From the NCBI GenBank assembly GCA_910575705.1, contig CAJTFG010000001.1, positions 619,216 to 683,215 of the forward strand: DNA of 64,000 bases, read 5' to 3'. Below are positions 1,012-29,845 of this stretch, in pieces (the first letter of the stretch is position 1; every line of letters begins with the position of its first letter). Under the pieces are notes generated by a model. The model was not told the origin of the DNA and made no database searches. It saw nothing but the letters and a program-made list of their open reading frames with translations. A program made the position numbers and the translations under genes. Source of the DNA: Erysipelotrichales bacterium (GTDB lineage: Bacteria > Bacillota_I > Bacilli_A > Erysipelotrichales > Erysipelotrichaceae).

Positions 1012-1335
1012 CCTCTGTATTTTATATAGAACTATGATGCTTACCTCAGTTATCTAATATGTACAGAGCCGGACGCTGAAGTCGTGTTACCCATGCTAGG
1101 TTTCCAGTGTTAGCAGGATAAGAAAGAACATAACCGGAACTCCCCATATTCCATGCTCCGCTTTGATTGCCCACATTTGTTGATGCAATAGGTGTAGACA
1201 TCCATATTTCTTCAAAAGGCACATTGTGTGTGATCTTCCACTCTGTAGCCGATACTTCACTTCCTGTACAAGAGAGCGGACCATCTTCACATAAGGATGG
1301 GGTTGGAATAATGTTGCTATATATAGAAATCGTGC
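1012..1335 (-). repeat. Cassette A1
   Basis: TIS motif (agaaatcgtgc on the plus strand) at 1325-1335, QRPAL motif at 1064-1078, hairpin from 1012. The minus-strand frame is open from Thr-Ile-Ser through QRPAL and ends YILDN-stop at 1046-1048. The body contains a Cys pair (LCEDGPLSCTG) and a central IWMSTPI motif similar to FWTASPI in A2. It has no start codon of its own in this frame. Confidence 0.8.
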
Positions 1336-1545
1336 TATAGCTGATCCAAGTACTTGGGTATTGATGACGCTATATCCTACCTTTTTTCTATATCATAACA
1401 GAAAACATAGATAGTATCCTTAACAATATATGAAAACTATTATATAGGAAGATCGAATATATCGTTTGATTAAATCTTGTATATAAAATAATCCTATATA
1501 AAAACATTGCAAACTACTGCATACCAAATACGTAATATTCTTTTC

Positions 1546-1845
1546 CCTCTGTATCTTATATACAACTATGATATATACCATAGTTTCCTAACATTTACAG
1601 AGCCGGACGCTGAAGAAAGGCTGTTTCCCCAACGATATAGTGACTTGTACCTCCCATATCTGCAACACCTTGATAGCTGACCATGTAGGTCACGTTCGGT
1701 AAAGATCTATTAATGGGAGATGCCGTCCAGAAACGCTCCCAAGTGTAGTCTGGGAATGTACGGTTCCAAGCAAAAGCACGATCTCTGGAACCCTTGTCCT
1801 GAGAAGATGGCAGTATGACAATGCCGTGATGAACAGAAATCGTGC
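1546..1845 (-). repeat. Cassette A2
   Basis: TIS motif 1835-1845, QRPAL 1598-1612, hairpin from 1546 with inner palindrome around AACTATGATA. The frame is open from TISVHHGIVILP to ETAFLQRPAL and stops immediately after Leu (1595-1597). Central motif FWTASPI. The linker above begins ccccaaagtgaccgaa, shared with B5. Confidence 0.8.
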
Positions 1846-1969
1846 CCCCAAAGTGACCGAACCTACCTTAGAAACGAACTCCAATCCTCACCGCTTTAAA
1901 CGAATCCCAGTCCAAGTTTTAAACAAAGTTCCCCTTATGCATAAAATTCTATCTTTTTTTCTACTTTTT

Positions 1970-2229
1970 CCTCTGTATGTTATTTGAACTATAATACCTA
2001 TCATAGTTATCCTAAATCATCAGAGCCGGACGCTGATAGCGAGGAGAGATAGCGCCAGGGAAACCACTGGTGCCATCGGGATGCACTGCAAAGATCTGAT
2101 TGTGTATATTGTCTGCAGGGGAAGAAGAAACTATTTCAAATTCGAAATCATTTCCTTTATAGGAGCCAAAACCTATTGATAGAACAGCCCCATTTTTAGG
2201 AACTACCAAACTTTTTACAGAAATCGTGC
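1970..2229 (-). repeat. Cassette A3
   Basis: TIS 2219-2229, QRPAL 2021-2035, hairpin from 1970 with inner arms AACTATAATA and TATCATAGTT, a near-perfect palindrome around CC. The open frame TISVKSLVVPKNG to SPRYQRPALMI stops at 2012-2014. This is the only unit where the frame also extends upstream through the linker to an ATG (2284), with no clear ribosome site; the extension is probably accidental because the same linker sequence recurs elsewhere. Confidence 0.8.
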
Positions 2230-2370
2230 GCACCTTATAATGGAATCCCAGTCCAATGGTTTTAGACAAGATCCTCCTATGCATAAAATTCCATCCATTA
2301 TTTCATTTTAACCTACCTCTGAAATAACGATAACAGAATTTATGAGAATATGCAGGTAAAAAAGAAAGAT

Positions 2371-2677
2371 CCTCTGTATGCTATATGAAATTATAATGCT
2401 TACTATAATTATTTATTATACCTACTATGGAATATATACAGAGCCGGACGCTGAGGATCTTCCGAATAATAAGAGTCCTGACAGTTCCAAGTAGTACCGA
2501 GATTGCCAATAGAGTAACAATGTTCGCCCATACTAGGAGAGGAAAGAGAGACAACACCATTACGAGTGAACGACAATCCTGTTACAGGATAATAGAAAGT
2601 CCTATCAAAGCTTCCCGTTGTTCCTTTGTTGCAGTCGCCTATAATAGGGACAATAAAATGCCCGGCAGAAATCGTGC
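2371..2677 (-). repeat. Cassette A4
   Basis: TIS 2667-2677, QRPAL 2439-2453, hairpin region from 2371, longer than in other units by an AT-rich insertion. The frame is open from TISAGHFIVPIIGDC to EDPQRPAL and stops at 2409-2411. The body is clearly related to A5: VTGLSFTRNGVVSLSSPS here versus LTGLSFSRNTVAALSSPS there. Three cysteines. Confidence 0.8.
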
Positions 2678-2698
2678 CCTCATTTTTCTTTTACCTTT

Positions 2699-2989
2699 CC
2701 TCTGTATCTTATATCGAATCATAATACTTATTATAATTATCGAATATGTACAGAGCCGGACGCTGCGGATCTTGCGTCCATCGAGCCTGTTCACAATCCC
2801 ATGAACTTCCGTCATTCATTAAGTTAAAGCATAACTTTCCAGAACTGGGAGAAGAAAGAGCAGCGACCGTATTTCTAGAAAATGATAAACCTGTTAAGGA
2901 ATAGAAGAAATGAGCATCTATGTTCCCCGGTGAGATCGTACTGCAATTACTTAACTTAACAGCAATAGAATGGGATACAGAAATCGTGC
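2699..2989 (-). repeat. Cassette A5
   Basis: TIS 2979-2989, QRPAL 2751-2765, hairpin from 2699. The frame is open from TISVSHSIAVKLSNC to TQDPQRPAL and continues YIFDNYNKYYDSI before TAA at 2709-2711. This hairpin-encoded tail resembles those of B2, B4, B5 and D2. Confidence 0.8.
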
Positions 2990-3031
2990 ATCTATAGAAA
3001 AGACCCCTATTTCTACCTATCTTTGTTAATC

Positions 3032-3116
3032 AAAAAGATGCACGATAAACTGTATGTTGTAAAGTGCTACATTTCTTCTTTACAAGATACCGCTTATTGT
3101 CATGCATCTTTTTTTA
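3032..3116. terminator. Long hairpin between array A and the DUF1846 gene
   Basis: AAAAAGATGCAcga at 3032-3045 pairs with tcatGCATCTTTTTTT at 3100-3116. On the minus strand this lies at the end of the DUF1846 gene and ends in a T run, so it can act as its terminator; it is near symmetric and may work both ways. Confidence 0.55.
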
Positions 3117-4598
3117 TTTATGGTAAAGCTTTTTTGTCTGATACTGCGGCTCGCATGTCAGATTGATCTTCAGTTTACGGAATGTATTGGCGTCTACCTG
3201 TGATAAGATGACAGAACTGTGCGCTTCACAGTCTTTTAATTTTTCCAACTGCTGCAATGCCAGATGAGAAACCGGATTCGTCGTTGCGGCAATTGCCAGA
3301 GCGATTAAAACTTCATCGGTATGTAAGCGAGGGTTGTGATTTCCCAAGCTGTTTACTTTCAGTCTTTGGATCGGTTCAATGATATTCGGTGAAATCAACG
3401 GAATATCATCATGGATATGTCCTAATGTTTTCAAAGCGTTTAACAATGCGGCAGAGCTGGCGCCTAATAAAGAAGATGTTTTACCTGTGACAATGGTACC
3501 GTCCGGTAATTCAATCGCCAATGCCGGAGCATTGGTCTCCTCCGCTTTGGAAATGGCAGCCTTTACGCAGACTCTGCATTCCGCCGATACATTGGCTTGT
3601 GCCATGATCACCTCTAGTTTTTCAATAACGGATGCATCTGCCGTTCCTTTTTTCTCATCGACTTTAGCCTGATAAAACCGACGGATGATTTCGTCTTGAG
3701 AAGCACAGATCGCCGCTTCGTCGTTTATAATACAGTTTCCGGCCATGTTTACCCCCATATCGGTAGGTGACTTATATGGACTTTTTCCTAAAAGGCGCTC
3801 AAAGATCGCGTTCAGAACAGGGAAGATCTCTACATCGCGATTATAGTTAACCGTTGTTTCGCCATACGCTTCCAGATGGAAGGGATCAATCATATTGATA
3901 TCGTTCAAATCAGCTGTGGCTGCTTCATATGCGAGATTGACCGGATGCTTTAAAGGGAGATTCCAGATCGGAAACGTTTCAAATTTCGCATATCCGGCTT
4001 TGATGCCGCGCTTATGATCATGATATAGCTGTGACAGACAAGTTGCCATTTTTCCGGAACCAGGACCGGGTGCTGTTACGACTACCAGTGGACGGGAAGT
4101 TTCGATATATTCATTTTTACCATAGCCTTCATCGGATACGATTAACGGTACATTGTTTGGATATCCTTTGATGACATAATGTAAATATACGTGGATACCC
4201 AAATTTTCCAAGAGTTTTTTGAAAGCGTCCGCGGCTGTCTGATTTTCATATTGAGAAATAACAACGCTTCCGACATATAAACCGCAATCGCGGAAAGCAT
4301 CGATCAAGCGCAGAACATCTACATCATAAGTAATGCCCAGATCGCTGCGCATCTTGCTTTTTTCAATATCTTGGGCACTGATGACGATTACCATTTCTGC
4401 CTGATCTTTCAGTTCCAGAAGCATTTTCAGTTTGCTGTCCGGCTGAAATCCGGGAAGTACACGGGAAGCATGATAGTCATCGAACAGTTTTCCTCCGAAC
4501 TCTAAATACAATCGGCTTCCAAAATGAGAGATACGCTCCAATATGTGTTCCGATTGCATTTTTAAATATTTATCATTGTCAAAAGCTATGTTCTTCAT
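3114..4598 (-). CDS. DUF1846 family protein
   Basis: A 494-residue cytosolic protein recognised as DUF1846 (UPF0371), usually about 500 residues, so full length. A P-loop-like glycine-rich motif APGPGSGKMATC is at about residues 175-186, and a C-terminal domain carries LPDGTIVTGKTSSLLGAS. The family function is not established; members are widespread in anaerobic Bacillota and structures show a nucleotide-binding-like N-terminal fold. The start is supported by AAAGGAGAT just upstream on the minus strand. It is monocistronic, with an AT-rich upstream region and a hairpin downstream. Confidence 0.9.
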   Translation of the reverse strand: MKNIAFDNDKYLKMQSEHILERISHFGSRLYLEFGGKLFDDYHASRVLPGFQPDSKLKMLLELKDQAEMVIVISAQDIEKSKMRSDLGITYDVDVLRLIDAFRDCGLYVGSVVISQYENQTAADAFKKLLENLGIHVYLHYVIKGYPNNVPLIVSDEGYGKNEYIETSRPLVVVTAPGPGSGKMATCLSQLYHDHKRGIKAGYAKFETFPIWNLPLKHPVNLAYEAATADLNDINMIDPFHLEAYGETTVNYNRDVEIFPVLNAIFERLLGKSPYKSPTDMGVNMAGNCIINDEAAICASQDEIIRRFYQAKVDEKKGTADASVIEKLEVIMAQANVSAECRVCVKAAISKAEETNAPALAIELPDGTIVTGKTSSLLGASSAALLNALKTLGHIHDDIPLISPNIIEPIQRLKVNSLGNHNPRLHTDEVLIALAIAATTNPVSHLALQQLEKLKDCEAHSSVILSQVDANTFRKLKINLTCEPQYQTKKLYHK

Positions 4599-4744
4599 GT
4601 TCTATCTCCTTTTACCGTTCTTAATTATAACAAAATAAATATATATTTACTAATGGATTGAACAGTTTCTTTGAAAAATTTTTGTTTTATGCATACAGGA
4701 AATATTGTGGACCGGCGATGAAAAAATGCACCGTTGCTATTGAC

Positions 4745-5038
4745 AGGAATATAATGACGTTGTAAAGTTTAAAAAACAAACTGATGACAGAGAGATAAAA
4801 CGGATTACGCACTGATAGAGAGCTGGGGAGGCTGGAAACCCGGTAGGGATGCGGATCTGACAAATGGACTCTGGAAGGCAACGTGAACGATAAAATATCT
4901 AGTAGCTGCGACGTCTGCCCACGTTATCGGGCTAGAAATGTGTTAGCATTTTGAAAGAGAGGGTATTTTATAATACCAAATCAGGTGGTACCGCAGATAA
5001 CAGCATCTGTCCTGAAGCAGGACGATGCTGTTTTTTTG
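4745..5038 (+). promoter_or_regulatory. T-box leader with tryptophan (UGG) specifier
   Basis: A full T-box architecture is visible: a long stem I region (about 4780-4900) with GAGAGCTGGGGAGGCTGG, a specifier-loop context AAATGGACTC in which the codon is TGG at 4865-4867, and the T-box proper AGGTGGTACCGC at 4983-4994. An intrinsic terminator follows directly. In this class uncharged tRNA pairs with the specifier and with the T-box bulge to stabilise the antiterminator, switching on the genes downstream when the amino acid is scarce. The TGG assignment agrees with the tryptophan-transporter type of operon that follows. A TTGACA at 4740-4745 may be the -35 element, but no good -10 sits at the right distance. 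Confidence 0.85.
5000..5037 (+). terminator. T-box intrinsic terminator
   Basis: CAGCATC at 5001-5007 pairs with GATGCTG at 5024-5030, with an extra internal stem CCTG/CAGG around a short loop, then seven Ts. Its 5' side overlaps what would pair in the antiterminator next to the T-box at 4983-4994. Confidence 0.85.
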
Positions 5039-5056
5039 TTATAGGAGGTGATCGCT

Positions 5057-5101
5057 TTGGACATGAGTGATTGGGATTGGCAGGTAAAGATAAGGTTATA
5101 G
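5057..5101 (+). CDS. Putative tryptophan-containing leader peptide
   Basis: A 14-residue frame, TTG at 5057 (or ATG at 5063) to TAG at 5099-5101, reads MDMSDWDWQVKIRL. It is preceded by an almost complete Shine-Dalgarno, AGGAGGTGATC, at 5043-5053, far stronger than chance would give. It holds two TGG codons in a row of three, and its stop codon abuts the ribosome site (AAAGGAG) of the next gene. This is the same layout as the B. subtilis rtpA leader, where a T-box is followed by a short Trp peptide whose completion blocks the downstream ribosome site. Function here is inference from layout. Confidence 0.6.
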   Translation: MDMSDWDWQVKIRL

Positions 5102-5117
5102 AAAGGAGCGATACAAT

Positions 5118-6083
5118 ATGAAAAAAATAATAGTGATGATAGGTATTGGTTTTCTGTTATTGACAGGATGTACGAAAAAAGAAGAAGGAAAACAGACGAT
5201 CGGTGTTGTGCAGATCGTGGAACATACTTCCCTGAATACGATACGAGATAGTTTTTTGGATGAGATGAACGTGTTGGGATATGATGAGGACTGTTTTGAA
5301 TTACAGAGTGCCGGTGGAGATGAGAGCACGTTGAATACGATTGTGCAGAAGTTCGTCAGCGATGATAAAGATTGTATTGTCGCGATCGCGACATCGTCTG
5401 CGCAAGTAGCGGCGAAATATGAGGATCAGCTGCCGGTCGTATTTTCCGCTGTCAGTGATCCGATCGGTGCCGGTCTTTTAAAAGATCCGAATGCTCCCGA
5501 ACGGAATATTACCGGTACAAGCGATGAGGTTCAGGTGGATCAGATCCTTGATTTGGCATTGCAGATCCAGCCGGATATGAAAACGATCGGTGTGTTGTAC
5601 AGCAGTTCGGAAGCAAATTCTGCCGTTTATGTGCAGCAGCTGGAAAAGCTTTGCGAAGAAAAGGGATTAAAGCTAGTGAAGCGTTCTATCACTGCTGTTT
5701 CTGATCTGCAAAGTGCGATGCAAAGCCTGTCAGCGGATGTAGAAGCGATATTTGTACCGAATGATAATACGATCGCCAGCAGTATGCCAATCCTCGTGAA
5801 GATAGCGAAAGAAAAAAAGATTCCGGTGTATGCCGGCGCAGATTCCATGGTACAGGATGGGGCGTTTGCGACCGTCGGTATCGATTATGAGGAATTAGGA
5901 AGAGAAACGGCACGTATGGTCGATCAGGTGCTGAAAGGAAAAGAGATTCGTGGCATTCCGGTCAAGGTTTTCAAAGATGATTTGAATATTTATATGAATA
6001 AGGATCGGCTTATCGAATTGGATATTACATTACCGAAGAGCATCACCGATAATGAGCGGCTGCACATGGTTGGAGAAAAATGA
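5118..6083 (+). CDS. trpX: ABC transporter substrate-binding lipoprotein, TrpX type
   Basis: 321 residues. The N-terminus is a lipoprotein signal with lipobox LLTGC (Cys about residue 18), so the mature protein is anchored outside the membrane. The rest matches the ABC_sub_bind family (PF04392): IGVVQIVEHTSLN, then FSAVSDPIGAGLL and a late GIDYEELGRETA motif. In streptococci these proteins belong to TrpXYZ systems behind Trp T-boxes, and the T-box here also specifies Trp, so tryptophan (or a precursor) is the likely ligand. Start set by AAAGGAG at 5102-5108. It overlaps the permease gene by 4 bp. Confidence 0.85.
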   Translation: MKKIIVMIGIGFLLLTGCTKKEEGKQTIGVVQIVEHTSLNTIRDSFLDEMNVLGYDEDCFELQSAGGDESTLNTIVQKFVSDDKDCIVAIATSSAQVAAKYEDQLPVVFSAVSDPIGAGLLKDPNAPERNITGTSDEVQVDQILDLALQIQPDMKTIGVLYSSSEANSAVYVQQLEKLCEEKGLKLVKRSITAVSDLQSAMQSLSADVEAIFVPNDNTIASSMPILVKIAKEKKIPVYAGADSMVQDGAFATVGIDYEELGRETARMVDQVLKGKEIRGIPVKVFKDDLNIYMNKDRLIELDITLPKSITDNERLHMVGEK

Positions 6084-6940
6084 TGACGGCGCTGTTAGGG
6101 GCATGTGAATTGGGATTGTTGATGGCAGTGATGTCACTTGGCGTATTTCTTTCTTTTCGCATTTTGAACGTCCCGGATTTGACGATCGACGGCAGTTTTA
6201 CGACAGGCTGTGCTGTTTCTGCCGTATGTTCCGGTATGCAGATGCATGCATTTGGATTAGGGATGGCCGTTCTTTGCGGTGCATTGGCAGGCTTGATAAC
6301 CGGGATCCTTCAAACAAAGGGAAAGATCCAGCCGATATTGGCAGGTATTTTGACTATGACGGGACTGTATTCGATCAATTTGCGTATTATGGGGTCTAAG
6401 CCAAACCTCTTTTTGGAGAATACGCTGTTTCTGCAGATAAAGGAACTGTTTCCTTCTTCCTATAGCGAATTGATTCTGATCCTTGTTTTTCTGCTTGTCG
6501 TGATCGGTATTTTGGTTTTGTTTTTTACGACGCAGCTGGGATTGGCTCTGCGGGCGACCGGAGATAATGAGGCCATGGTAAAAGCCAGCAGTATCAATTC
6601 GGATGCGATGATCATACTGGGGCTTTCTTTGGCGAATGCGATCGTTGCCTTCAGCGGTGCGCTGTTTGTCCAATATCAGGGATTCAGCGATATCAATTCC
6701 GGCACCGGGATGATGGTGATCGGGTTGGCATCCGTTATCGTAGGAGAGGTATTTCTTACATCACGCCGTCTGCCGGTCCGTTTTTTAAGTGTTGTATGCG
6801 GCGCTTTGCTGTATCGTTTCATTTTGACATTTGCTTTGCAGCTGGGATTGGAGGCTAACGATATGAAGTTACTATCAGCCGTGCTGGTCATCGCTGCCAT
6901 ATCGTTTCCGCATATGTTAAGGAGGCGTTATCATGCTTAG
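6080..6940 (+). CDS. trpY: ABC transporter permease, TrpY type
   Basis: 286 residues with about eight hydrophobic segments. It resembles the branched-chain-type permease fold that partners PF04392 binding proteins: SLGVFLSFRILNVPDLTIDG near the start, GLALRATGDNEAMVKASSI in the cytoplasmic loop before the last segments. It would form the membrane channel for the lipoprotein encoded upstream. The start overlaps the previous stop (ATGA) and the end overlaps the ATPase gene by 8 bp, indicating translational coupling. Confidence 0.85.
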   Translation: MMTALLGACELGLLMAVMSLGVFLSFRILNVPDLTIDGSFTTGCAVSAVCSGMQMHAFGLGMAVLCGALAGLITGILQTKGKIQPILAGILTMTGLYSINLRIMGSKPNLFLENTLFLQIKELFPSSYSELILILVFLLVVIGILVLFFTTQLGLALRATGDNEAMVKASSINSDAMIILGLSLANAIVAFSGALFVQYQGFSDINSGTGMMVIGLASVIVGEVFLTSRRLPVRFLSVVCGALLYRFILTFALQLGLEANDMKLLSAVLVIAAISFPHMLRRRYHA

Positions 6941-7691: not shown

Positions 7692-7830
7692 ACGGTGCGC
7701 TTTTCTAAAATTTCGTTGTTTTGGTAGAAATGCCTTACTAAATGTTTTATAATATATCTGCTGATAGCAGTGAACTTATAATCACAAAACCTGCTCTTCT
7801 GGATACAATGGAATGTTGGAAGGAGAATAT

Positions 7831-9099: not shown

Positions 9100-9108
9100 T
9101 ATATATTT

Positions 9109-9131
9109 AAAAGCACATTCGTGCTTTTTTT
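9109..9131 (+). terminator. Terminator after murA
   Basis: AAAGCAC-attc-GTGCTTT stem followed by a run of Ts, 10 bases after the murA stop. Confidence 0.8.
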
Positions 9132-9167
9132 ATGTTCCGGGAGTATAATGAAGAAGAGGGTGGTTCT

Positions 9168-10390: not shown

Positions 10391-10399
10391 TAGAACGAT

Positions 10400-11430: not shown

Positions 11431-11730
11431 CCTCTGTATGTTGTATAGAATTATGATTCTTATCATAATTATCAATTATCATCAGAGCCGGACGCTGTGA
11501 TGCGGCAACGTGAGTGACATTAAGCCAAGATTCTCCATGCAATCCGATTGCATGAGAAACTAACGGATTGCCATCATAAGAACTATTAGGAGAGCTTAAA
11601 CGGAATTTGTTTGTTGATGCTAAAGACGGATCACTCGGATTTGTGTAAGAGAAAGCGGCATCTTTTGAAGGTTCTATTGTGTGAGTATCAGAAGAAAATA
11701 CCCAGATCTTATGAGCATAAGAAATCGTGC
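11431..11730 (-). repeat. Cassette B1
   Basis: TIS 11720-11730, QRPAL 11483-11497, hairpin from 11431 with perfect inner arms AATTATGAT and ATCATAATT. Open frame from TISYAHKIWVFSSDTH to NVTHVAASQRPAL, with the tail MIIDNYDKNHNSI running on through the linker to a stop at 11279. The body is almost identical to B4. Confidence 0.82.
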
Positions 11731-11825: not shown

Positions 11826-12119
11826 CCTCTGTATGTTATATAGAGCTATAATTCTTATCATAGTTTCTTAATTTCATCAGAGCCGGACGCTGATATCTGG
11901 TATCGTGTACCGCAGCCATACCACAATCAATATTTCCAAGTTGGTAAATAGCCCCAACTGTCTTGAGGATGATTATATCTTCGCGAATTCCCGGAGAAGA
12001 AAGGAAAGCACCTTCGAAGGAATTTTCAGGAAGCAATGCCCATTGAAATACTGGATCTGATGTTCCTGAGAATTCGGAGCCGACAATAGGGATTATTTTA
12101 TGTCTAAGAGAAATCGTGC
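11826..12119 (-). repeat. Cassette B2
   Basis: TIS 12109-12119, QRPAL 11878-11892, hairpin from 11826. Open frame from TISLRHKIIPIVGSEF to VHDTRYQRPAL, tail MKLRNYDKNYSSI, stop at 11836-11838. The body is a near copy of D3, 17.7 kb away. Its linker begins ctatagctgatccaag. Confidence 0.82.
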
Positions 12120-12223
12120 TATAGCTGATCCAAGAAAAGAAGAAATGCATAAAAAACTTACCCTCATATAAAGGATAACAGATATCGTATGAACATTTGC
12201 TAGTAAATACTGGAAATGAAAAA

Positions 12224-12535
12224 CCTCTGTATTGCATACTCCATTATAATCTCTATTATAATGATCAGATACATTTAACAGAGCCGGACGCTGCCAGTGA
12301 TATACGAAATAAGATTGATGATCAAGAACACTATAACCGGTAAAAGAGTGTCCATATACCGTTCGGGTGTTTGAAGCAGTAGATCCTGGTGTAAATTGAG
12401 GTTTATTATTTGGAAGATTCTGTAAAGAGTAATGAAAAGAAGTGTCTCTGCTAGCACCATTTTGACAGGAACCATCTGTTATTGAGCATACACCACCTGC
12501 AATAACTTTGATTTGATGATGAACAGAAATCGTGC
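12224..12535 (-). repeat. Cassette B3
   Basis: TIS 12525-12535, QRPAL 12279-12293, hairpin from 12224 with perfect inner arms ATTATAAT and ATTATAAT. Open frame from TISVHHQIKVIAGGVC to YFVYHWQRPAL, tail LNVSDHYNRDYNGV. The hairpin is identical to that of B7 although the bodies are unrelated at this level. Confidence 0.8.
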
Positions 12536-12729
12536 CCCCAAAGGATCGAACACACCTTATAATGGAACCCTAATCCAATCAGTTTAGACAAGGCTTCTCT
12601 TATGTATAAAATCCTGCCATTCCTCACCATTTAATGGGACCCCTAATCTTATTATCATTTTTAACCTACCTTTATAAAAAGGATACCAGATAATGAATAA
12701 AAAAATCAGTAAATAAGGGAAACCCATAT

Positions 12730-13029
12730 CCTCTGTATGTTATATAAAGTCATAATACTTACTATGACCAAAGAATACCATCAGAGCCGGACGCTGCGAT
12801 GCGGCGACGTGAGTGACGTTAAGCCAAGATTCTCCATGCAATCCGATTGCATGAGAAACTAACGGATTGCCATCATAAAAACTATTAGGAGTGCTTAAAC
12901 GGAATTTATTTGTTGATGCTAAAGAAGGATCGCTCGGATTTTTATAAGAAAAAGCGACATCTTTTGAAGGCTCTATTGTGTGAGTATCAGAAGAAAATAC
13001 CCAGATCTTATGAGCGTAAGAAATCGTGC
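12730..13029 (-). repeat. Cassette B4
   Basis: TIS 13019-13029, QRPAL 12782-12796, hairpin from 12730 with inner arms GTCATAAT and ACTATGAC. Open frame; the body matches B1 with only a few substitutions (for example SKDVAFSYKNP for SKDAAFSYTNP). Tail MVFFGHSKYYDFI, stop at 12740-12742. The hairpin differs from that of B1. Confidence 0.82.
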
Positions 13030-13105
13030 GTGATAAAAAAGAACCCAAACTATAAAGCTACCCTTAACAAAAGAATACCAAATAATGTACAAATTATAAA
13101 AGCTT

Positions 13106-13389
13106 CCTCTGATTTTATATAGGATCATAATACTTACTATAATCTTCTGATTTCATCAGAGCCGGACGCTGTGGAAAAATTCCCTCGGATGCACGGTTAT
13201 CCCACCATGATTTCCCATCCATAGAGCCATCATACATTACGATAAGAGGTATTAGGGCTGTTTGAAAAGAAGATAGCCAATAAGCATTTGGATAGGGTGC
13301 AGAGGTATTGCCTCCTTTGTAAAATAAGGGAAATAATGGCTCAAGGCTGACCATCGTAGCAACTCTGTTGTTTTTTACAGAAATCGTGC
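13106..13389 (-). repeat. Cassette B5
   Basis: TIS 13379-13389, QRPAL 13157-13171, hairpin from 13106 (left arm CCTCTGATT). Open frame from TISVKNNRVATMVSLE to ASEGIFPQRPAL, tail MKSEDYSKYYDPI, stop 13115-13117. No cysteine in the body. Confidence 0.8.
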
Positions 13390-13538
13390 TCCCAAAGTGA
13401 CCGAATCACCATATTAAGCGAACTCCAATCCTCACCGCTTTAAACGAATTCCAGTCCGAGTTTAAATAAAGTTTCTCTTATGCATAAAATTCTATCCTCA
13501 TGTTTCCCTTCTCCTCACCTTTGTGACCGAACACCAAT

Positions 13539-13819
13539 CCTCTGTATGTTATTTGAACTATGATGCTTACCACAGTTATCCAATATCTACAGAGCCGGAC
13601 GCTGATAGTCTTCCCAGACCGCTTGAAAAAGAGCCCATTTAGGTTGTACTTTTGCATATTTTAATACAATATATGCGAAAATATTACCTGAATGATTAGT
13701 AGATAGGAAATAGTGCTTTGTCGTAGTGAAGGTAAAATCTTCGGAACCTGTACATGAAGTTTGCCCCAGGCAATCCTTTGACAAGACTGTTAAGATACGG
13801 TGAGAATTAGAAATCGTGC
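13539..13819 (-). repeat. Cassette B6
   Basis: TIS 13809-13819, QRPAL 13590-13604, hairpin from 13539. Open frame from TISNSHRILTVLSKDC to VWEDYQRPAL, stop immediately after Leu at 13587-13589, as in A2. One Cys pair (DCLGQTSC). The linker begins ctatagctgatccaag. Confidence 0.8.
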
Positions 13820-13923
13820 TATAGCTGATCCAAGAAGGGAAGAAGAGGATAGAAAGCCTACCCATAAGAAAAGGATACCAGATAATGTTCAAATAAATGC
13901 TAGTAAATACTGGAAATGAAAAA

Positions 13924-14223
13924 CCTCTGTATTGCATACTCCATTATAATCTCTATTATAATGATCAGATACATTTAACAGAGCCGGACGCTGAAAAATG
14001 ATAGAATTAGAGTTAGTAACCATATTCGTAGGAGCACCGGTAAACCATCCCTTATGCTCATAAACAACAGTGTAACGAGCCGAAGATCCCCAGTAATATT
14101 GTCTAGTGAAATGGGATATGGACGAAAAAGAAAACATGGGATTTAAACTGCCATCACATTGCCCAAAGTCATTACACTGCTTATTTGACTCTACAAATAT
14201 TTTTTGATGATAAGAAATCGTGC
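13924..14223 (-). repeat. Cassette B7
   Basis: TIS 14213-14223, QRPAL 13979-13993, hairpin from 13924, identical to the B3 hairpin. Open frame from TISYHQKIFVESNKQC to NSIIFQRPAL, tail LNVSDHYNRDYNGV, stop at 13889-13891. One Cys pair (QCNDFGQC). Confidence 0.8.
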
Positions 14224-14442
14224 TGCAAAACCCACAATTCTTATATTTCCATCACCTTCTTCATTATAATGGTATTATAAAAAAACAGAGAAATCTATAT
14301 TTGACAAGTTTTATTCCTATAGTGAAAAAATACATGTCATCGGTAAATGTATCATTTATAATGAAATAAAAGAAAACTTCCGCAACTGGCTATTTTGTTA
14401 GCGGGGGAAGTTTGGTATAATAGGAAAGACTGGAGGGACTGT

Positions 14443-21878: not shown

Positions 21879-21886
21879 TAGGTTGA

Positions 21887-21914
21887 GAAACGGTATGACG
21901 AATACCGTTTTTTT
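21887..21914 (+). terminator. Terminator before rnmV
   Basis: AACGGTAT-gacg-AATACCGTT stem followed by seven Ts. Confidence 0.75.
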
Positions 21915-21967
21915 ACGGAAAAGCTGTAAAGGGAGTATTTACAAACATAGGAAAACAGCAGCGGGTA

Positions 21968-21976
21968 TGATATAAT
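21968..21976 (+). promoter_or_regulatory. Extended -10 promoter for rnmV operon
   Basis: TGATATAAT is a perfect extended -10 about 26 bases ahead of the rnmV start. The same TGATATAAT is found ahead of the YitT gene (61792-61800) and the ftsE fragment (62792-62800), so extended -10 promoters seem common here. Confidence 0.5.
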
Positions 21977-22002
21977 GATGACGATTTGTCAGGAGGAACT
22001 GC

Positions 22003-23402: not shown

Positions 23403-24253
23403 AAAGCTCCATTGAGGTAAAGGCGCATGCGAAGATCAATTTGTGTTTGAATGTCAAGGGCAGAAGGGAAGACGGGTATCATGATTTGGAAATGGTTATG
23501 GTTCCTTTGCTGCTTCACGATGATATCGTCATTCGTCTGGCAGATGCCGACTGGCTGTGCTGTGATGATAAGACATTATTGCTGGATGATACGAATACGA
23601 TCACAAAAGCGGTCACGTTGATGCGTGATACTTATCATATAAAAGAACATTTTGTTGTGGAGTTAAAAAAAAGGATCCCTATGCAGGCAGGGCTTGCCGG
23701 TGGCAGCAGTGATGCCGCAGCGGTTATGAGGGGGATTAATGATCTTCTTGGACTGCATATTCCTTTGACAGAACTGGCACACCGTTCTAAGGAGATCGGA
23801 GCGGATGTTCCTTTTTGCGTTATGGATACATGTGCGGTAGTAGAGGGGATCGGAGAATATATAACACCGTTTGATATGAATTGTGATGCTCATATTCTTT
23901 TGGTAAAACCTTCTGCCGGTGTACCGACGGGAACGGCATTTAAAATGCTGGATATTGATAAGTGCGAACATCCTTCTTGTTTTCAGATGCGCGATGCTTG
24001 CAGAAAGGGTCGTTTTTATGACATGTGTGCGGCATTAGGCAATTCATTGGAGTACAGTGCTTTTCAGATCGTTCCAGAGATCGCAAAGATCAAACAAAGC
24101 TTGCAGTTGGCAGGTTTTGATGGCGTTTTGATGTCAGGGAGCGGCAGTACGGTATTTGCGCTTACCCGTGATGAATGTCTGCTGCAAAGAACGATTAAGG
24201 AATGGGAGAAACGATATCCGTTTGTTTTGGCGACGCGGATTTATAAAAAATGA
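23399..24253 (+). CDS. ispE: 4-diphosphocytidyl-2-C-methyl-D-erythritol kinase
   Basis: 284 residues. GHMP kinase with AHAKINLCLNVKGRREDGYH at the start and the ATP loop GLAGGSSDAAAVM. It phosphorylates CDP-methylerythritol in the MEP isoprenoid pathway. The start is GTG at 23399, with AAAAGGAG nine bases upstream and a GTGA overlap with rsmA. The stop lies only 4 bp before the first hairpin of cassette array C. Confidence 0.92.
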   Translation: MKSSIEVKAHAKINLCLNVKGRREDGYHDLEMVMVPLLLHDDIVIRLADADWLCCDDKTLLLDDTNTITKAVTLMRDTYHIKEHFVVELKKRIPMQAGLAGGSSDAAAVMRGINDLLGLHIPLTELAHRSKEIGADVPFCVMDTCAVVEGIGEYITPFDMNCDAHILLVKPSAGVPTGTAFKMLDIDKCEHPSCFQMRDACRKGRFYDMCAALGNSLEYSAFQIVPEIAKIKQSLQLAGFDGVLMSGSGSTVFALTRDECLLQRTIKEWEKRYPFVLATRIYKK

Positions 24254-24257
24254 TAAA

Positions 24258-24563
24258 CCTCTGTATTGCATATGAAATCATAGTACCTGCTATGATTTTT
24301 TAATATCAACAGAGCCGGACGCTGCCACCATGTAGAAACCCCATCACTGATTTCTTTTGCGGTGAATTGCGAATATGCCGGAGCACCGTTATACCATTGG
24401 GCATATACGTGTATTGCATCTTGTGACGTCGACATCCACATCCACTCGCTGTTCTTAGGAACAGGCCATGCCATTCCTTGATTCCAAATACCTTCACAGC
24501 TATGTTCGCCCCAAATGCATGTAGTGGGAAGAGAAAGGATATTGTAACCATAAGAAATCGTGC
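24258..24563 (-). repeat. Cassette C1
   Basis: TIS 24553-24563, QRPAL 24310-24324, hairpin from 24258 with perfect inner arms AAATCATAG and CTATGATTT. Open frame from TISYGYNILSLPTTC to GVSTWWQRPAL, tail LILKNHSRYYDFI, then a stop at 24241-24243 inside the end of ispE on the other strand. One Cys pair; central MWMSTSQ. Confidence 0.8.
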
Positions 24564-24669
24564 ACCATAGAAACGAACACCCTAACTTCATTATCATTTT
24601 TTACCTACCTTTATAAAAAGGATACCAGATAATATTCAAATCGTTATTAGTAAATACTAAAAATGAAAA

Positions 24670-24942
24670 CCTCTATATCTTGTATACGATCATAATGCTT
24701 ATCATGATCTTCTTGCATTAACAGAGCCGGATGCTGAACGATGGTTGCGTCACGCTTATAGCTCTCGGAAGTTATGATTCTGGAACTTCCCGCATACACA
24801 AATGTCCTGTTCAGGTAAGGGTGGGGAGTAGAGCTGATATGTAATCCATTCCCCTTGAAAATGAAACTATAGTCTCGGCTTCCTGCACTAAGATTATCAA
24901 TCCCGGGTTTCGGTAAAATACGGTGACTGCCGGAAATCGTGC
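24670..24942 (-). repeat. Cassette C2 (diverged)
   Basis: TIS motif changed to GGAAATCGTGC (24932-24942; still Thr-Ile-Ser), QRPAL changed to QHPAL by one base (24722-24736), hairpin arm CCTCTATAT. The frame is nevertheless open from TISGSHRILPKPG to DATIVQHPAL and on to a stop at 24647-24649, tail LMQEDHDKHYDRI. Confidence 0.72.
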
Positions 24943-25096
24943 TCTATATAAGTGAGGAAGAAACTACACGTATCATTATATCATGCGAGGAAGTTTGAAA
25001 GACTGTATAGTGATAAAAAAGGGTTGTGTTATGGGAATTTATGGAAGCGGTTTAAAAAAGCTTTGTAAAAACTAAAAAAAACAAATAAATTCTTTA

Positions 25097-25125
25097 TTTA
25101 CACAAGAATTTTGATAGAATATAAA
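25097..25125 (+). promoter_or_regulatory. Promoter of glmU
   Basis: TTTACA at 25097-25102, 17-bp spacer, TATAAA at 25120-25125. Confidence 0.55.
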
Positions 25126-25143
25126 GTGGAGGTATATTTACAG

Positions 25144-26499
25144 ATGAAATCAGCAATTGTGTTAGCTGCCGGAAAAGGCACGAGAATGAAATCGGCTTTG
25201 AATAAGGTAATGCATCCTGTCTGTAATAAACCGATGATCGGGCATATCGTTTCTGCATTAAAAAAATGTGATGTTGAAAAGATCGTCGTCGTTGTCGGAC
25301 ATGGTGCTGAAGACGTAAAGGAATACTTAAAGGATGATGTGATGTATGCATTGCAGTCACCGCAGCTTGGTACAGGTCATGCGGTTATGCAGGCAAGTCA
25401 GCTGGAAGGATCGGACGGCGATACGATCATTTTGTGTGGAGATGGTCCGCTCATTCAGCCGGAAACCATCCAGAAAGCGTTTGAAGAGAATAAGGAGTAT
25501 TCTTTGACGGTACTGACATCTGTTTTGCCGGATGGAGAGCGTTATGGGCGGATCGTTCGTGATGCCGCTGGCAATGTGGAGAAAATCGTAGAAGCAAAAG
25601 ATTGTACGCCGGAAGAACTGGAGATCAAAGAGATCAATACCGGTATCTTCTGCTTTAAGACAAAAGAGCTGTTTGAAGGATTAAAAGAGATTCGCAATGA
25701 TAATGCACAAAGCGAATACTATATCACGGATCTGGTAGAAATCTTTAATAAAAAAGGATTAAAAGGACATGCGATGATCGTTGACGATCCTGAAGAAACC
25801 ATGGGTGTCAATGACCGTGTCGATCTTGCCAAAGCACAGAAATGGATGAAGCGTCGCATCAATGAGCGTCATATGTACAACGGAGTAACGATCATAGATC
25901 CGGAGCATACATATATTGATGCCGATGTGGAGATCGGACAGGATACGGTAATCTATCCGAATGTATTTTTGCAGGAACATACAAGGATCGGGAATAATGT
26001 GACTATTTTGCCGAATTCTTTTTTACGTAATGCAGAGATTGCTGATGATGTGACGATCGACAGTTCAAAGATCGTAGAAAGCAAGGTTGGTAAAGGAAGT
26101 ACGGTTGGACCGATGAGTCATCTTCGCAATCAAACGGAAATATGTGAGAACTGCCGTATCGGGAACTTTGTGGAGTTTAAAAACAGTCATTTTGGAAATG
26201 GCAGTAAATGTGCACATCTGACATATATTGGAGACAGTGATTTCGGAGAAAGGATCAATGTCGGCTGTGGTGTCGTAACAGTGAATTATGATGGCAAGCA
26301 TAAATTCCGTACGACGGTAAAAGACGGTGCATTTATCGGCAGTAACTGTAACCTGATCGCGCCGGTCACGATCGGTGAAAACGCATTGCTGGCGGCCGGA
26401 TCTACGATTACGGACAGTGTGCAGGATGGCGATATGGGGATTGCCCGATCTCGACAGAGCATAAAACCGGGTTTCGGTACAAAATACAAGAACAAATAG
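25144..26499 (+). CDS. glmU: Bifunctional GlmU (UDP-GlcNAc synthesis)
   Basis: 451 residues. The N-terminal uridylyltransferase domain has LAAGKGTRMKSALNKVMHPV and LCGDGPLI; the C-terminal left-handed beta-helix acetyltransferase has hexapeptide repeats and NYDGKHKFRTTVKDGAFIG. It makes UDP-GlcNAc, the precursor for MurA (7.8 kb) and for the capsule sugars. The start at 25144 follows GTGGAGG. It is 16 bp before prs, a common Gram-positive pair. Confidence 0.94.
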   Translation: MKSAIVLAAGKGTRMKSALNKVMHPVCNKPMIGHIVSALKKCDVEKIVVVVGHGAEDVKEYLKDDVMYALQSPQLGTGHAVMQASQLEGSDGDTIILCGDGPLIQPETIQKAFEENKEYSLTVLTSVLPDGERYGRIVRDAAGNVEKIVEAKDCTPEELEIKEINTGIFCFKTKELFEGLKEIRNDNAQSEYYITDLVEIFNKKGLKGHAMIVDDPEETMGVNDRVDLAKAQKWMKRRINERHMYNGVTIIDPEHTYIDADVEIGQDTVIYPNVFLQEHTRIGNNVTILPNSFLRNAEIADDVTIDSSKIVESKVGKGSTVGPMSHLRNQTEICENCRIGNFVEFKNSHFGNGSKCAHLTYIGDSDFGERINVGCGVVTVNYDGKHKFRTTVKDGAFIGSNCNLIAPVTIGENALLAAGSTITDSVQDGDMGIARSRQSIKPGFGTKYKNK

Positions 26500-26515
26500 G
26501 AAAGAGGACGTAAAC

Positions 26516-27469
26516 ATGAATAAGAACACAGTTGTATTCGCTTTGACATCCAGTGTTGATCTGGCAAACGAGATCGCGGCAACACTGGGAATTCCATTGG
26601 GATTATGTGAGGTTAAACATTTTGCCGATGGAGAAATCATGGTAGAGCTTGGTGAATCTGTTCGTAATAAACATGTATATATCGTACAGTCTACATGTAA
26701 CCCGGTTTCCAGCAATCTGATGGAAGTCTTGATTGCGATTGATGCCTGCAAACGTGCCAGTGCGGCACATATTACCGTGGTAATGCCTTATTTCGGGTAT
26801 GCCCGTCAGGATCGCAAGGCAAAACCAAGACAGCCGATCACTTCTAAACTGGTAGCGGATCTGTTGGAAAAAGCAGGGGCTCATCGTGTGATTACTATGG
26901 AGCTGCATGCTACACAGATTCAGGGATTTTTCAATATTCCGGCGGATGATATTTCTGCGATCGGATTGCTTGGTGACTATTTCAAGCATAAGGATCTGAA
27001 AGATGTGGTCGTCGTATCTCCGGATCATGGAGGAACGACGCGTGCCAGAAAATTAGCAGAAGCGCTTCATGCGCCTCTTGCGATCATAGATAAACGTCGT
27101 CCGAAGCCGAATGTTGCGGAAGCGATGCATCTGATCGGTGATGTTGAAGGGAAAGTTGCTATTATGGTAGATGATATCGTAGATACGGCCGGTACCTTGA
27201 TGACAGGTATTCAGATGCTGTATGATAAAGGAGCTACGGAAGTATATGCTTCTTGTATCCATGGCGTTTTATCCGGCCCTGCTATCGAGCGTTTGAGAGA
27301 AAGCAAGGTCAAAGGCTTCGTTTGTACGAATACGATTTCACAAGATCAGAAGAAAGAGAATTTCCCGGAAATGACCGTGCTGTCTGTGGGAAAGATTTTG
27401 GGTGAAACGATCAAAGCAATGGAAGAGAGCCGTTCTGTAGGGAATGTATTGAAGGAGTTATTTAACTAA
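26516..27469 (+). CDS. prs: Ribose-phosphate pyrophosphokinase
   Basis: 317 residues. It makes PRPP from ribose 5-phosphate and ATP. Seen: RKAKPRQPITSKLVADLL, metal-binding ELHATQIQGFF, and the PRPP-binding IMVDDIVDTAGTL. RBS GAAAGAGG upstream. Co-transcribed with glmU. Confidence 0.94.
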   Translation: MNKNTVVFALTSSVDLANEIAATLGIPLGLCEVKHFADGEIMVELGESVRNKHVYIVQSTCNPVSSNLMEVLIAIDACKRASAAHITVVMPYFGYARQDRKAKPRQPITSKLVADLLEKAGAHRVITMELHATQIQGFFNIPADDISAIGLLGDYFKHKDLKDVVVVSPDHGGTTRARKLAEALHAPLAIIDKRRPKPNVAEAMHLIGDVEGKVAIMVDDIVDTAGTLMTGIQMLYDKGATEVYASCIHGVLSGPAIERLRESKVKGFVCTNTISQDQKKENFPEMTVLSVGKILGETIKAMEESRSVGNVLKELFN

Positions 27470-27483
27470 GAGAGGATTTTGAT

Positions 27484-27840
27484 ATGCTGGAACACTTTAT
27501 TGTTACATGGCTGCCGGAGGCTGTATCCATATTGGAGATCATCGGTATTATCGTAATCTTTGTAGGATCTATTAAAGCTTTTGTACATTATGTGATCAGC
27601 ATATGTACGCAGCGTCGCTTTTCCATTAAGATAGAACTTGCCAATGCCTTGGCTTTAGGGTTGGAATTTAAGATGGGAGCGGAGATATTAAAGACGGTTT
27701 TAATTCGAGAGATGTCGGAAATTTATATTTTGGGTGCTATTATCCTTCTGCGTGCTTTTCTGACGGTGTTGATTCATTTTGAGGTAAAAGCGGAAATGCA
27801 GCATGGAGATAGTAGCGAAGCTTCTTTGAATAATTATTAG
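27484..27840 (+). CDS. DUF1622 family membrane protein
   Basis: 118 residues with two to three hydrophobic segments, recognised by the pattern RFSIKIELANALALGLEFKM and a late LRAFLTVLIHFEV. The function is unknown. It is 14 bp after prs and is closed by a perfect terminator, so it is the last gene of the glmU-prs transcription unit. Confidence 0.8.
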   Translation: MLEHFIVTWLPEAVSILEIIGIIVIFVGSIKAFVHYVISICTQRRFSIKIELANALALGLEFKMGAEILKTVLIREMSEIYILGAIILLRAFLTVLIHFEVKAEMQHGDSSEASLNNY

Positions 27841-27879
27841 GAAATAAAAAGAAATGAGTTTATCATTTCTTTTTATTTG
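27841..27879 (+). terminator. Terminator after DUF1622 gene
   Basis: AAATAAAAAGAAATG and CATTTCTTTTTATTT are perfect complements around AGTTTAT. Confidence 0.85.
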
Positions 27880-27940
27880 ACTTTATTGTTATTGAAATGG
27901 AATTCCCGTATAATAAAGATGAAAGCGGGAGGTGTTCTTC

Positions 27941-28558
27941 ATGTCAGAGAAACGGATCGTTACAATCAGCCGCCAGTTCGGCAGCGGCGGAAGAGAAGTC
28001 GGAAAGAAATTGGCGGATCATCTTCATATTCCTTTTTACGATAAAGAATTGATCGAATTAGCCGCAAAGGAAAGCGGTATTGATCCGGAATTATTTGAAG
28101 AAGACCAGGGAAAGATCGGAAAAGGATTTCAGCTGTTGAATACAATAGGGTTTTCGTTAGGAAGTCCGATCACCGGTATCAGTGAAATGTCCCTTAGTGA
28201 TCGCATGTTTTTGATTCAGACGGAGATCATGGAACAGCTTGCGGAAAAAGGGTCATGTATCCTTGTCGGACGTTGTGCGGATTACATACTTGCGGATCGT
28301 GATGATGTTATTAATATATTTATACATGCCGATATGACAGATCGCATCCATCGTGCGGAAACGGATTATGCGATCAAAGAAAGAAATATGGAAGCTTACG
28401 TGAATAAGATCGATAAACGCAGAGCGAATTACTATAACTATTATACCGATCGCAGATGGGGTGCGGCGGATAATTACGATGCTTGTCTGAATACAAGTAC
28501 ATTTGGCATTGACGGAACTGCGAATATCATTGAGGTTTTATTAAAAAGTAATCATTAG
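27941..28558 (+). CDS. Cytidylate kinase-like family protein
   Basis: 205 residues. N-terminal P-loop SRQFGSGGREVGKKLAD, then FYDKELIELAAKESG and CILVGRCADYIL, as in the AAA_26 / cytidylate kinase-like family. It is not the canonical Cmk, lacking its usual N-terminal IDGPAGSGKS motif; the substrate is unknown. The start at 27941 follows GGGAGGTG. A hairpin ATATGTCC/GGGACATAT with Ts (28587-28623) terminates it next to array D. Confidence 0.82.
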   Translation: MSEKRIVTISRQFGSGGREVGKKLADHLHIPFYDKELIELAAKESGIDPELFEEDQGKIGKGFQLLNTIGFSLGSPITGISEMSLSDRMFLIQTEIMEQLAEKGSCILVGRCADYILADRDDVINIFIHADMTDRIHRAETDYAIKERNMEAYVNKIDKRRANYYNYYTDRRWGAADNYDACLNTSTFGIDGTANIIEVLLKSNH

Positions 28559-28586
28559 TATAATAGTGGAATATTGATAAAGTTAT

Positions 28587-28623
28587 GATATGTCCTTGTA
28601 TGATCAGCAGGGACATATTTTTA
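28587..28623 (+). terminator. Terminator before array D
   Basis: ATATGTCC pairs with GGGACATAT, followed by TTTTT. Confidence 0.65.
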
Positions 28624-28629
28624 TGTTAT

Positions 28630-28922
28630 CTCTGTATGGTATGTAGAACTGTAATACGTATTATAGCTATCTAATTCATGCAGAGCCGGACGCTGATAAG
28701 GATACACATTAGATGTTGTCGGATTTGCCCAGACAGAATCCAGATGACCGCCGGAATATATTGCGGTAGCTTGCTTTCTTGTATCTCTGGTAAAGAGAGA
28801 GGACGTCACAAAGAATATTTTAATATTTGTATTTGGCTGATCCCATACAAAACTGATATCCTTAGAACCTTTTAAACTCGTATCCTGTATAGCCTTGATT
28901 TTATGATAAACAGAAATCGTGC
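28630..28922 (-). repeat. Cassette D1
   Basis: TIS 28912-28922, QRPAL 28681-28695, hairpin from 28630 with inner arms AACTGTAATAC and GTATTATAGCT. Open frame from TISVYHKIKAIQDTS to SNVYPYQRPAL, tail HELDSYNTYYSST, stop at 28621-28623. It is the only body here with IKIFFVTSSLFT in the central position. Confidence 0.8.
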
Positions 28923-29013
28923 GGTTATAAAGAGACTGCAAGTAATAGTGTCATCTACCTTATAAGGATAACAGATACTATATAAAAATGTATTCATAAA
29001 AGGTAAAAACATC

Positions 29014-29331
29014 CCTTTGTACTCTATATAGAACCATAATGCTTATCATGATTGTCGAATGTATACAAAGCCGGACGCTGATAGGATTCATAGCTGGATT
29101 GGGGTAAAGATCCCATATATGTATCCCAACGTAAAAGAGAACCGTAAGATTGAGAGCCTAATGCCCTTGTGGGGATATATGCCGTAGCCAACCAAAACGG
29201 TTCATGTTGATATTTGGTCGTATGCTGAAACCAAAATGCCAGGTCGCGAGAACCATCCGGGCAATTCCACCCATCCGGACATTCCTTTAAAACGACTGCG
29301 GTCACAATACCGCGTATGGCAGAAATCGTGC
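29014..29331 (-). repeat. Cassette D2 (compensated hairpin)
   Basis: TIS 29321-29331, QRPAL 29066-29080, hairpin from 29014. The outer stem reads CTTTGTA with TACAAAG instead of the usual CTCTGTA with TACAGAG: both partners changed together. QRPAL is kept since the change falls in the third base of Ala-Leu (CTT-TGT). Open frame from TISAIRGIVTAVVLK to YESYQRPAL, tail YTFDNHDKHYGSI, stop 29024-29026. Cys pair CPDGWNC. Confidence 0.8.
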
Positions 29332-29553
29332 TATAGCTGATCCGAGAAGGGAAAAAGAGAATGAAAAGCCTACCTTTATAAAAAGGATATCAAATAATAT
29401 ATAAAAAATTATTAGTAAATATTGGAAATGTATATCCTCTCCATGGTAAACGAATCCCACCTTACAAAGGAATCCTTAGCCTCATTTTTCTTTTACCTTC
29501 TCCTCACCATTTTGACCGAATCCCTTTCCTCACCTTTGTGACCGAACACCAAT

Positions 29554-29845
29554 CCTCTGTATGTTGTTTGAACCATGAACCCATCATAGTTATCCAATTT
29601 GTACAGAGCCGGACGCTGATATCTGGTATCGAATATACTGGCCATACCGCAATCAATATTCCCAAGTTGGTAGATAGCACCAACTGTCTTGAGGATGATC
29701 TCATCCTTGCGAATTCCCGGAGAAGAAAGGAAAGCGCCTTCGAAGGGATTTTCGGGAAGCAATGCCCATTGAAACAGCGGATCTGATGTTCCCGAGAAAC
29801 TGGCTCCGACAATAGGGATTATTTTATGTTTAAGAGAAATCGTGC
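29554..29845 (-). repeat. Cassette D3
   Basis: TIS 29835-29845, QRPAL 29604-29618, hairpin from 29554 with a slightly shortened inner loop. Open frame from TISLKHKIIPIVGASF to IFDTRYQRPAL, tail YKLDNYDGFMVQ, stop at 29493-29495. The body differs from B2 at only a few positions, but the hairpin and tail differ. Confidence 0.82.

Follow-up and report, generated by a model that had tools for sequence, protein, structure and literature searches.

The window analysed here is a stretch of 64,000 nucleotides from the genome of an Erysipelotrichales bacterium (assembly GCA_910575705.1, contig CAJTFG010000001.1, positions 619,216 to 683,215 of the forward strand), and its subject is a set of short silent gene cassettes, 17 of which lie in the window, each on the minus strand and grouped into four arrays at 1.0-3.0 kb (5 units), 11.4-14.2 kb (7), 24.3-24.9 kb (2) and 28.6-29.8 kb (3). 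Each unit is bounded by a start motif, GCACGATTTCT, coding Thr-Ile-Ser (TIS), and an end motif, CAGCGTCCGGCTCTG, coding Gln-Arg-Pro-Ala-Leu (QRPAL). At up to one mismatch the start motif has 18 sites in the window, 17 of them on the minus strand (16 exact), where the shuffled mean is 1.47; the plus-strand site at 1776 is a stray. The end motif has 17 sites (15 exact, 2 with one mismatch) against a shuffled mean of 0.03. The frame from TIS to QRPAL is open in all 17 units, and the picture of 17 open units in four arrays that an earlier note had drawn by inspection therefore holds, with both motifs far above chance. Open reading frames with an ATG, GTG or TTG start from a mechanical list overlap several of the cassettes (e.g. 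11836-12237 and 24241-24597). An Rfam scan of the window gave nothing reaching gathering scores, and a Pfam scan of four cassettes gave nothing above a cut-off. The units are listed below as donors, each a cassette together with its spacer, followed by the promoter motifs found with it.

1012..1335, minus strand: donor, cassette 1064-1335 with spacer hairpin 1012-1063; extended -10 site TGTTATGAT at 1400, AGGTAG at 1382
1546..1845, minus strand: donor, cassette 1598-1845 with spacer 1546-1597; AGGTAG at 1868
1970..2229, minus strand: donor, cassette 2021-2229 with spacer 1970-2020; TGTTATCGT at 2335, AGGTAG at 2318
2371..2677, minus strand: donor, cassette 2439-2677 with spacer 2371-2438; promoter motif not found
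2699..2989, minus strand: donor, cassette 2751-2989 with spacer 2699-2750; AGGTAG at 3018; shares its 239-bp body without a difference, and its spacer, with a donor in locus L046
11431..11730, minus strand: donor, cassette 11483-11730 with spacer 11431-11482; promoter motif not found
11826..12119, minus strand: donor, cassette 11878-12119 with spacer 11826-11877; TGTTATCCT at 12180
12224..12535, minus strand: donor, cassette 12279-12535 with spacer 12224-12278; TGGTATCCT at 12688, AGGTAG at 12671
12730..13029, minus strand: donor, cassette 12782-13029 with spacer 12730-12781; TGGTATTCT at 13080
13106..13389, minus strand: donor, cassette 13157-13389 with spacer 13106-13156; body with 2 differences from a donor in locus L042; promoter motif not found
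13539..13819, minus strand: donor, cassette 13590-13819 with spacer 13539-13589; TGGTATCCT at 13880; identical over 247 bp to the module now in the active gene (G000:C3)
13924..14223, minus strand: donor, cassette 13979-14223 with spacer 13924-13978; TGATACATT at 14354
24258..24563, minus strand: donor, cassette 24310-24563 with spacer 24258-24309; TGGTATCCT at 24627, AGGTAG at 24610
24670..24942, minus strand: donor, cassette 24722-24942 with spacer 24670-24721; TGATATAAT at 24983
28630..28922, minus strand: donor, cassette 28681-28922 with spacer about 28630-28680 (end read by eye); TGTTATCCT at 28973, AGGTAG at 28960
29014..29331, minus strand: donor, cassette 29066-29331 with spacer 29014-29065; TGATATCCT at 29392, AGGTAG at 29375
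29554..29845, minus strand: donor, cassette 29604-29845 with spacer 29554-29603; TGTTAGAAT at 29889, AGGTAG at 29872

The spacer at about 28630-28680 was missed by the motif scan because its end reads CAGAGA.

The one real gene reached among the frames examined, here called the active gene, lies at G000:C3:197065-176531 on the minus strand and encodes 6,844 residues. Its cassette module occupies residues 311-386, and the frame continues for more than 6,400 residues beyond QRPAL, so that the cassettes are internal modules and not gene 3' ends. The earlier note was thus right in taking them as silent copies of part of one protein whose intact, in-frame gene lies elsewhere, and mistaken in assigning them to its C-terminus. 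The active module is identical to the window unit 13590-13819 over 247 bp, with unrelated flanks beyond. This identity supplies the template repeat and the variable repeat in a target gene that are sought in a diversity-generating retroelement (DGR), and silent donors with a single expressed locus, as at vlsE and pilE, are likewise present. By eye the active-gene protein has a signal-like sequence at its N-terminus and, at its C-terminus, a hydrophobic stretch with a charged tail, and it is probably surface-exposed. Its N-terminus has no relative in viral contigs and none among the longer fragments. Directly upstream of this giant gene lies a gene for an extracytoplasmic function (ECF)-type sigma factor (L069:11182-12258, minus strand), which may control it.

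The motifs extend well beyond the window. Across the genome (1.845 Mb in 11 contigs) the end motif has 141 sites at up to two mismatches, and a reversed-pattern control has 0; the start motif has 128 exact sites. Since the end motif occurs on both strands (66 forward, 75 reverse), the single orientation described in the earlier note is a property of the window and not of the genome. Detailed unit counts were taken from stretches around listed motif sites, which hold 135 end motifs: 132 have an in-frame TIS, 130 of these open and 2 with a stop, and among the other three, two are out of frame and one is without the 5' motif. The other five frames of the 130 open bodies are open in just 0.8-6%, and ten close pairs (picked by similarity, as in the adenine and exchange analyses below) differ by 61 synonymous and 58 nonsynonymous changes, giving a ratio of 0.95 where 2.53 would be expected without selection; selection on the coding sequence, also proposed earlier, is borne out by both results. 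By a 600-nt gap rule the 130 open units form 61 groups, or 129 donors in 60 groups once the active gene is set aside. The genome therefore holds at least 129 silent donors, the 17 of the window among them. Their bodies are highly divergent from one another, and 107 of the 129 are left after an 80% similarity filter.

Nearly every cassette is followed on its 3' side by a spacer that encloses an inner hairpin and is closed by pairing between the final bases of the QRPAL motif and a CARAGG some 48 nt further on. The strict stem test was passed by 83 of the 129 donors (78 distinct), and in the 60 sequences selected from these 96.7% of cells are paired and 12 of 16 pairs are changed on both sides, where slid controls give 26-52%; because the alignment was built from donors that passed the test, the pairing percentage is biased upward. 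In the full set of 129 donors ARAGG is present in 123, of which 100 have it at +47 to +49, and YARAGG in 120. At the variable Y-R position 118 of the 123 with ARAGG have a Watson-Crick pair, and 97.6% are paired if G-U is included, against a shuffled mean of 89.9% and a largest shuffle of 92.7%; every shuffle is likewise exceeded by the pair just below and by the one that first follows the motif. A covariance model of the spacer gave 131 donor-strand matches at E<2e-6 genome-wide and 4 weak opposite-strand ones at the same places, and, with 150 of 1,778 candidates scored, these 135 matches are a lower bound. On the other, upstream side of the cassette 55.8% of donors have TGnTAnnnT (21.9% shuffled) and 49.6% have AGGTAG (5.6% shuffled). 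The two are 17 nt apart in 34 of 47 co-occurrences, a spacing that fits an extended -10 site with the transcript starting at AAGGTAG.

Several smaller features of the library may be recorded here. The covariance model adds three further donors outside the listed end-motif sites (G000:C1:713062, 720684 and 723643, minus strand). At L037:2217 (plus strand; G000:C1:260202) an end motif with a full spacer matching the model stands without cassette body or start motif; it is a truncated donor, perhaps left by 5'-truncated copying. Two donors are shortened and out of frame (L033, L036) and two have an internal stop (L036, L037), so donors can decay. A leader module, TTTTATGCATAAG, recurs upstream of cassettes in 12 of 130 leaders, with 13 sites in the DNA chosen around cassettes, and a second, TTCGGTC[AG]CTTTGG, in 7 of 130 leaders, with 7 sites in the same DNA; within the window such repeated leader modules are found at 13400-13590 and 29331-29560, for example. 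Many arrays apparently start behind the T-run of a host terminator and stop before another, as judged by eye, hinting at an insertion preference.

The genome has a single reverse transcriptase (RT), of 412 residues, encoded at C2:179012-180247. The earlier note had suggested looking for such an enzyme near the active gene; one is indeed present, of DGR type and accompanied by an Avd protein, on a different contig from the active gene (C2 and C3, respectively). The neighbour of the RT, present in single copy, matches the Pfam bAvd family PF22296 with 45.6 bits (cut-off 40). In a tree for which the tool warned of long branches among the outgroup rows, the RT falls inside the DGR clade, grouped with P0001-P0004 (100/100) and beside P0005 (99/95). 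Metagenome RT proteins are 98, 88, 82 and 65% identical to it, the last three being P0002-P0004, so that this clade of RTs reaches beyond the present genome; the next best RT in 272 family genomes is 41% identical, and relatives in viral contigs reach 40% among the best 80. Motif 4 of the RT reads QGNLVSQ, which keeps GxxxSQ and has Q as its first residue (H in P0004). It thereby departs from the (I/V/L)GxxxSQ of RT domain 4 that is conserved in 90% of the DGRs surveyed in PMC3521204. Among 120 aligned RT proteins Q or H at the position of Q208 is confined to P0001-P0004, with 21 others gapped there and 5 carrying P; the 48 mutagenic relatives have L, I or M in 47 cases and S in 1. When the RT is aligned with BPP-1 brt (31%), I181 stands opposite Q208 and R74 opposite R91, and these two BPP-1 residues reportedly set adenine selectivity. 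Both motif 4 and Q151 of HIV are connected with fidelity in PMC3521204. A separate RT group, P0042-P0105, has GSQVSQ or GSQISQ as its motif 4, where the alignment leaves a gap in place of the usual hydrophobic residue.

The best 80 listed RT relatives in named genomes are 34-52% identical, and 49 of them have a nearby repeat pair differing at adenines; these became 48 when the palindrome L157 was dropped, and as the pairs were selected by an adenine bias of >=75% their bias is there by construction. In many of these canonical relatives the 3' end of the template pairs with a spacer closing in CAAAGGA at about +50, and YARAGGA at +25 to +85 after the template is found in 23 of the 48, as against 2.6% of random windows at the same loci. 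In 22 of the 48 a long frame has an end of the [VAC]R[PA]A type, which is RPAL in 18 (18 of the 22 were used in the alignment of canonical target ends), and CGTCCGGCTCTG, which equals the final 12 bases of the end motif here, closes the variable repeat of one relative, L161. Three canonical targets scanned are DUF6273 proteins; the target protein here has no DUF6273 match. By its RT, its Avd, its spacer layout and its RPAL end, the cassette system probably derives from a DGR.

Evidence that modules have been exchanged comes from a second sequence of the target and from the donors themselves. P0121 (4 member sequences; 3,108-bp contig) has three substitutions relative to the active gene in residues 1-313, and carries a different cassette, that of the silent donor C1:263949-264215 of this genome (99% over residues 309-397); the P0121 N-terminus occurs once in this genome, in the active gene. 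At the 5' junction about 12 nt are common to this donor and the active gene, probably too little for a mistaken join by the assembler. Downstream P0121 continues into its donor's own spacer and then a stop. Exchange among donors was followed in 14 equal-length pairs with up to 20 differences, a set that includes the active module paired with its donor. At distant loci, two pairs of donors show complete identity along 233 and 230 bp, which extends 0/0 and 2/0 nt past the motifs into flanks only 25-52% alike, and this coincidence of the identity with the motifs identifies the exchange unit as motif to motif. A third identical pair (239 bp, including the window unit 2751-2989) starts exactly at the start motif and shares the spacer too. 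On the assumption that the body replaced was unlike its replacement, as bodies mostly are, the sequence shared before the event would have been just about 11 and 15 nt, a length that would hardly serve ordinary homologous recombination.

This last point bears directly on the first alternative, in which host recombination through RecA or RuvAB converts segments of the gene, as in Borrelia vlsE and Neisseria pilE, and the RT has nothing to do with the cassettes. Such conversion would be in keeping with donors that are retained, with transfer that is apparently one-way, with short direct repeats flanking donor and active module, with the 26 nt of 5' homology (motif included) that the active module and its donor share, and with the extra upstream gene sequence that some donors carry (e.g. 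TYGSYQYPSTWISYSTIS in L041 and L048). It is nevertheless unlikely. The long homology between donor and expressed module seen at vlsE and pilE is replaced here by divergent bodies and by identical tracts bounded by 11- and 15-nt motifs, two of which end at those motifs in unrelated flanks, and host conversion leaves unexplained the promoter motifs, the covarying spacer behind nearly every donor and its canonical DGR layout. The donor layout, with its spacer and short end motifs, does meet what is needed by phage BPP-1, namely priming, RecA-free homing and short 5' identity: in BPP-1, 8 bp of 5' identity suffices for homing (PMC3240598), homing is independent of RecA, and a spacer adenine primes the cDNA at the template 3' junction (PMC12875486).

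The RT, Avd, spacer and RPAL end are all DGR-like and could belong to a mutagenic DGR of the ordinary kind, its many template copies being relics, a reading that is very improbable in view of how the sequences differ. The active module has 0 changes relative to its donor over 66 adenines. Of the 132 differences counted in 11 close pairs, 57 involve A, fewer than the half that six equally frequent kinds of difference would give, and C/T is commonest (55); close donors are thus without adenine bias. Relics would also not be expected to keep open frames under purifying selection, or the RT clade to carry Q or H throughout at the selectivity position. Adenine mutagenesis, the hallmark of DGRs, is not found here, and for that reason the system is not classed as a member of the DGR family. 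No A-biased repeat pair was present in the 16 kb of the RT locus.

The third alternative, integron-like or invertase-like site-specific recombination with the spacer hairpin as a folded attachment site, of which the earlier note had raised the integron-like form, can point to a structured and covarying spacer (attC sites are structured elements with covariation) and to an XerC protein passing the generic model NF040815 (XerA), whose title includes 'integron integrase' (232.9, cut-off 220), and is scarcely credible, as dedicated integron-integrase models reach 130 bits at best against a cut-off of 265, two of the three tyrosine recombinases are Xer-type, the spacer model scores 18.1 bits (E 0.25) at the active gene against 41-90 at donors, and the donor is kept. 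The three recombinases, found in a search that did not cover serine recombinases, are XerC (335.8 bits, cut-off 335.15), an XerD-like protein and a third that falls under every cut-off.

The explanation that appears quite likely is a DGR-derived, faithful, many-template cassette switch, in which the donors would act as template RNAs copied by the RT and Avd into one giant predicted surface protein. An RNA starting at the extended -10 site would cover cassette and spacer; the spacer would bind RT and Avd and prime cDNA at the cassette end, as in phage BPP-1; and the cDNA would replace the active module between the two motifs while the donor stays put. By the same route donors would overwrite one another. 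The RT would have lost adenine mutagenesis, and diversity would then come from the choice among stored templates rather than from random change. Copying from RNA, the fidelity of the RT and the surface location of the protein are all parts of this scheme that we infer from sequence. The fuller description of a DGR turned library reader, with one RT, about 130 dispersed RNA templates, error-free writing into a single 6,844-residue surface protein and template-over-template overwriting, is one that we favour with some reserve.

A number of observations weigh against this faithful DGR-derived switch or some part of it. The strict stem test was failed by 46 of the 129 donors. The next two stem positions are 69.9% and 33.3% paired, where the largest shuffles reach 70.7% and 44.7%, so that the common stem is short, and the base after YARAGG is A in just 77 of 129 donors (YARAGGA), so that a fixed priming adenine is not established. 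About half of the donors are without the promoter motifs. The NCBIfam Avd model gives the RT neighbour 41 bits, below its cut-off of 80. The spacer covariance model has no significant match on canonical templates, and the shared spacer layout is consequently one of architecture and not proven homology. A C-type lectin fold for the module found no confirmation: AlphaFold models reach pLDDT (predicted local distance difference test) values of 41.5 and 59.6 and a fold search with them gave no structural match, the match of the cassette to the canonical profile is weak (P 5e-4, probability 31%; 2.6% with a longer alignment), and a profile search of solved structures returned nothing below E 0.4. 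The 3' junction of P0121 may be an assembly join through a repeat of roughly 220 bp, longer than a read, or a real truncation. Finally, the donor system is known from one genome only: the spacer model gave no match in 271 other genomes of the family or in 314 other genomes of the order (overlapping sets, with stricter filters), and among 59 further relatives sampled the count of end-motif sites with up to two mismatches peaks at 35 (G035; control 3), every site among the matches listed having 1-2 mismatches.

Should the proposed switch operate, it would be the first reverse-transcription-driven archive for antigenic variation in a bacterium, with a library itself evolving by retrohoming, and the cell would switch its coat from stored sequences instead of by random mutation. 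No description of such a system was found in the open-licence literature, among the matches listed. It would join retroelement diversification to silent-cassette antigenic variation and would let the determinants of RT fidelity at motif 4 be tested in a natural setting; its naturally trans-acting RNA templates would also make it a rewriting system of evident value as a tool.

The feature for which DGRs are known is adenine mutagenesis, in most cases drawing on a single local template. With those of BPP-1 and the mostly Bacillota relatives the present system shares the RT clade, the bAvd partner, the structured spacer after the template, the GC-rich 3' motif, the short 5' homology and a target module ending in RPAL. 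It differs in having about 130 dispersed templates rather than one beside the RT, in that adenine mutagenesis is not found, in Q or H instead of I, L, V or M in motif 4, and in templates that are also copied among themselves. A 2021 survey treats the adenine bias as intrinsic to DGRs, with just 7 clusters of genuine exceptions below 75%, by a method blind to remote targets (PMC8144416). Integrons and shufflons have in common with the present system partial frames that are expressed once joined to a constant part, whereas here a dedicated integron integrase is not found, the donor is kept and the recipient has no well-scoring folded site. Borrelia vlsE and Neisseria pilS-pilE are alike in their silent donors, one active site, retention of the donor and short conserved repeats bounding the module. 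The donors here, by contrast with those contiguous arrays, occupy about 60 dispersed loci, have very divergent bodies (likeness among vls cassettes is about 90%), resemble RNA genes and are accompanied by a dedicated RT. The DGR-like calls in Pseudomonas costantinii, as reported in PMC6642488 (6 templates, 91 pairs, few A changes and repeats averaging 97.6% identity), show the same features of more than one template and few A-to-N changes, and differ in that nearly identical repeats take the place of the highly divergent bodies and one recipient of the system described here.

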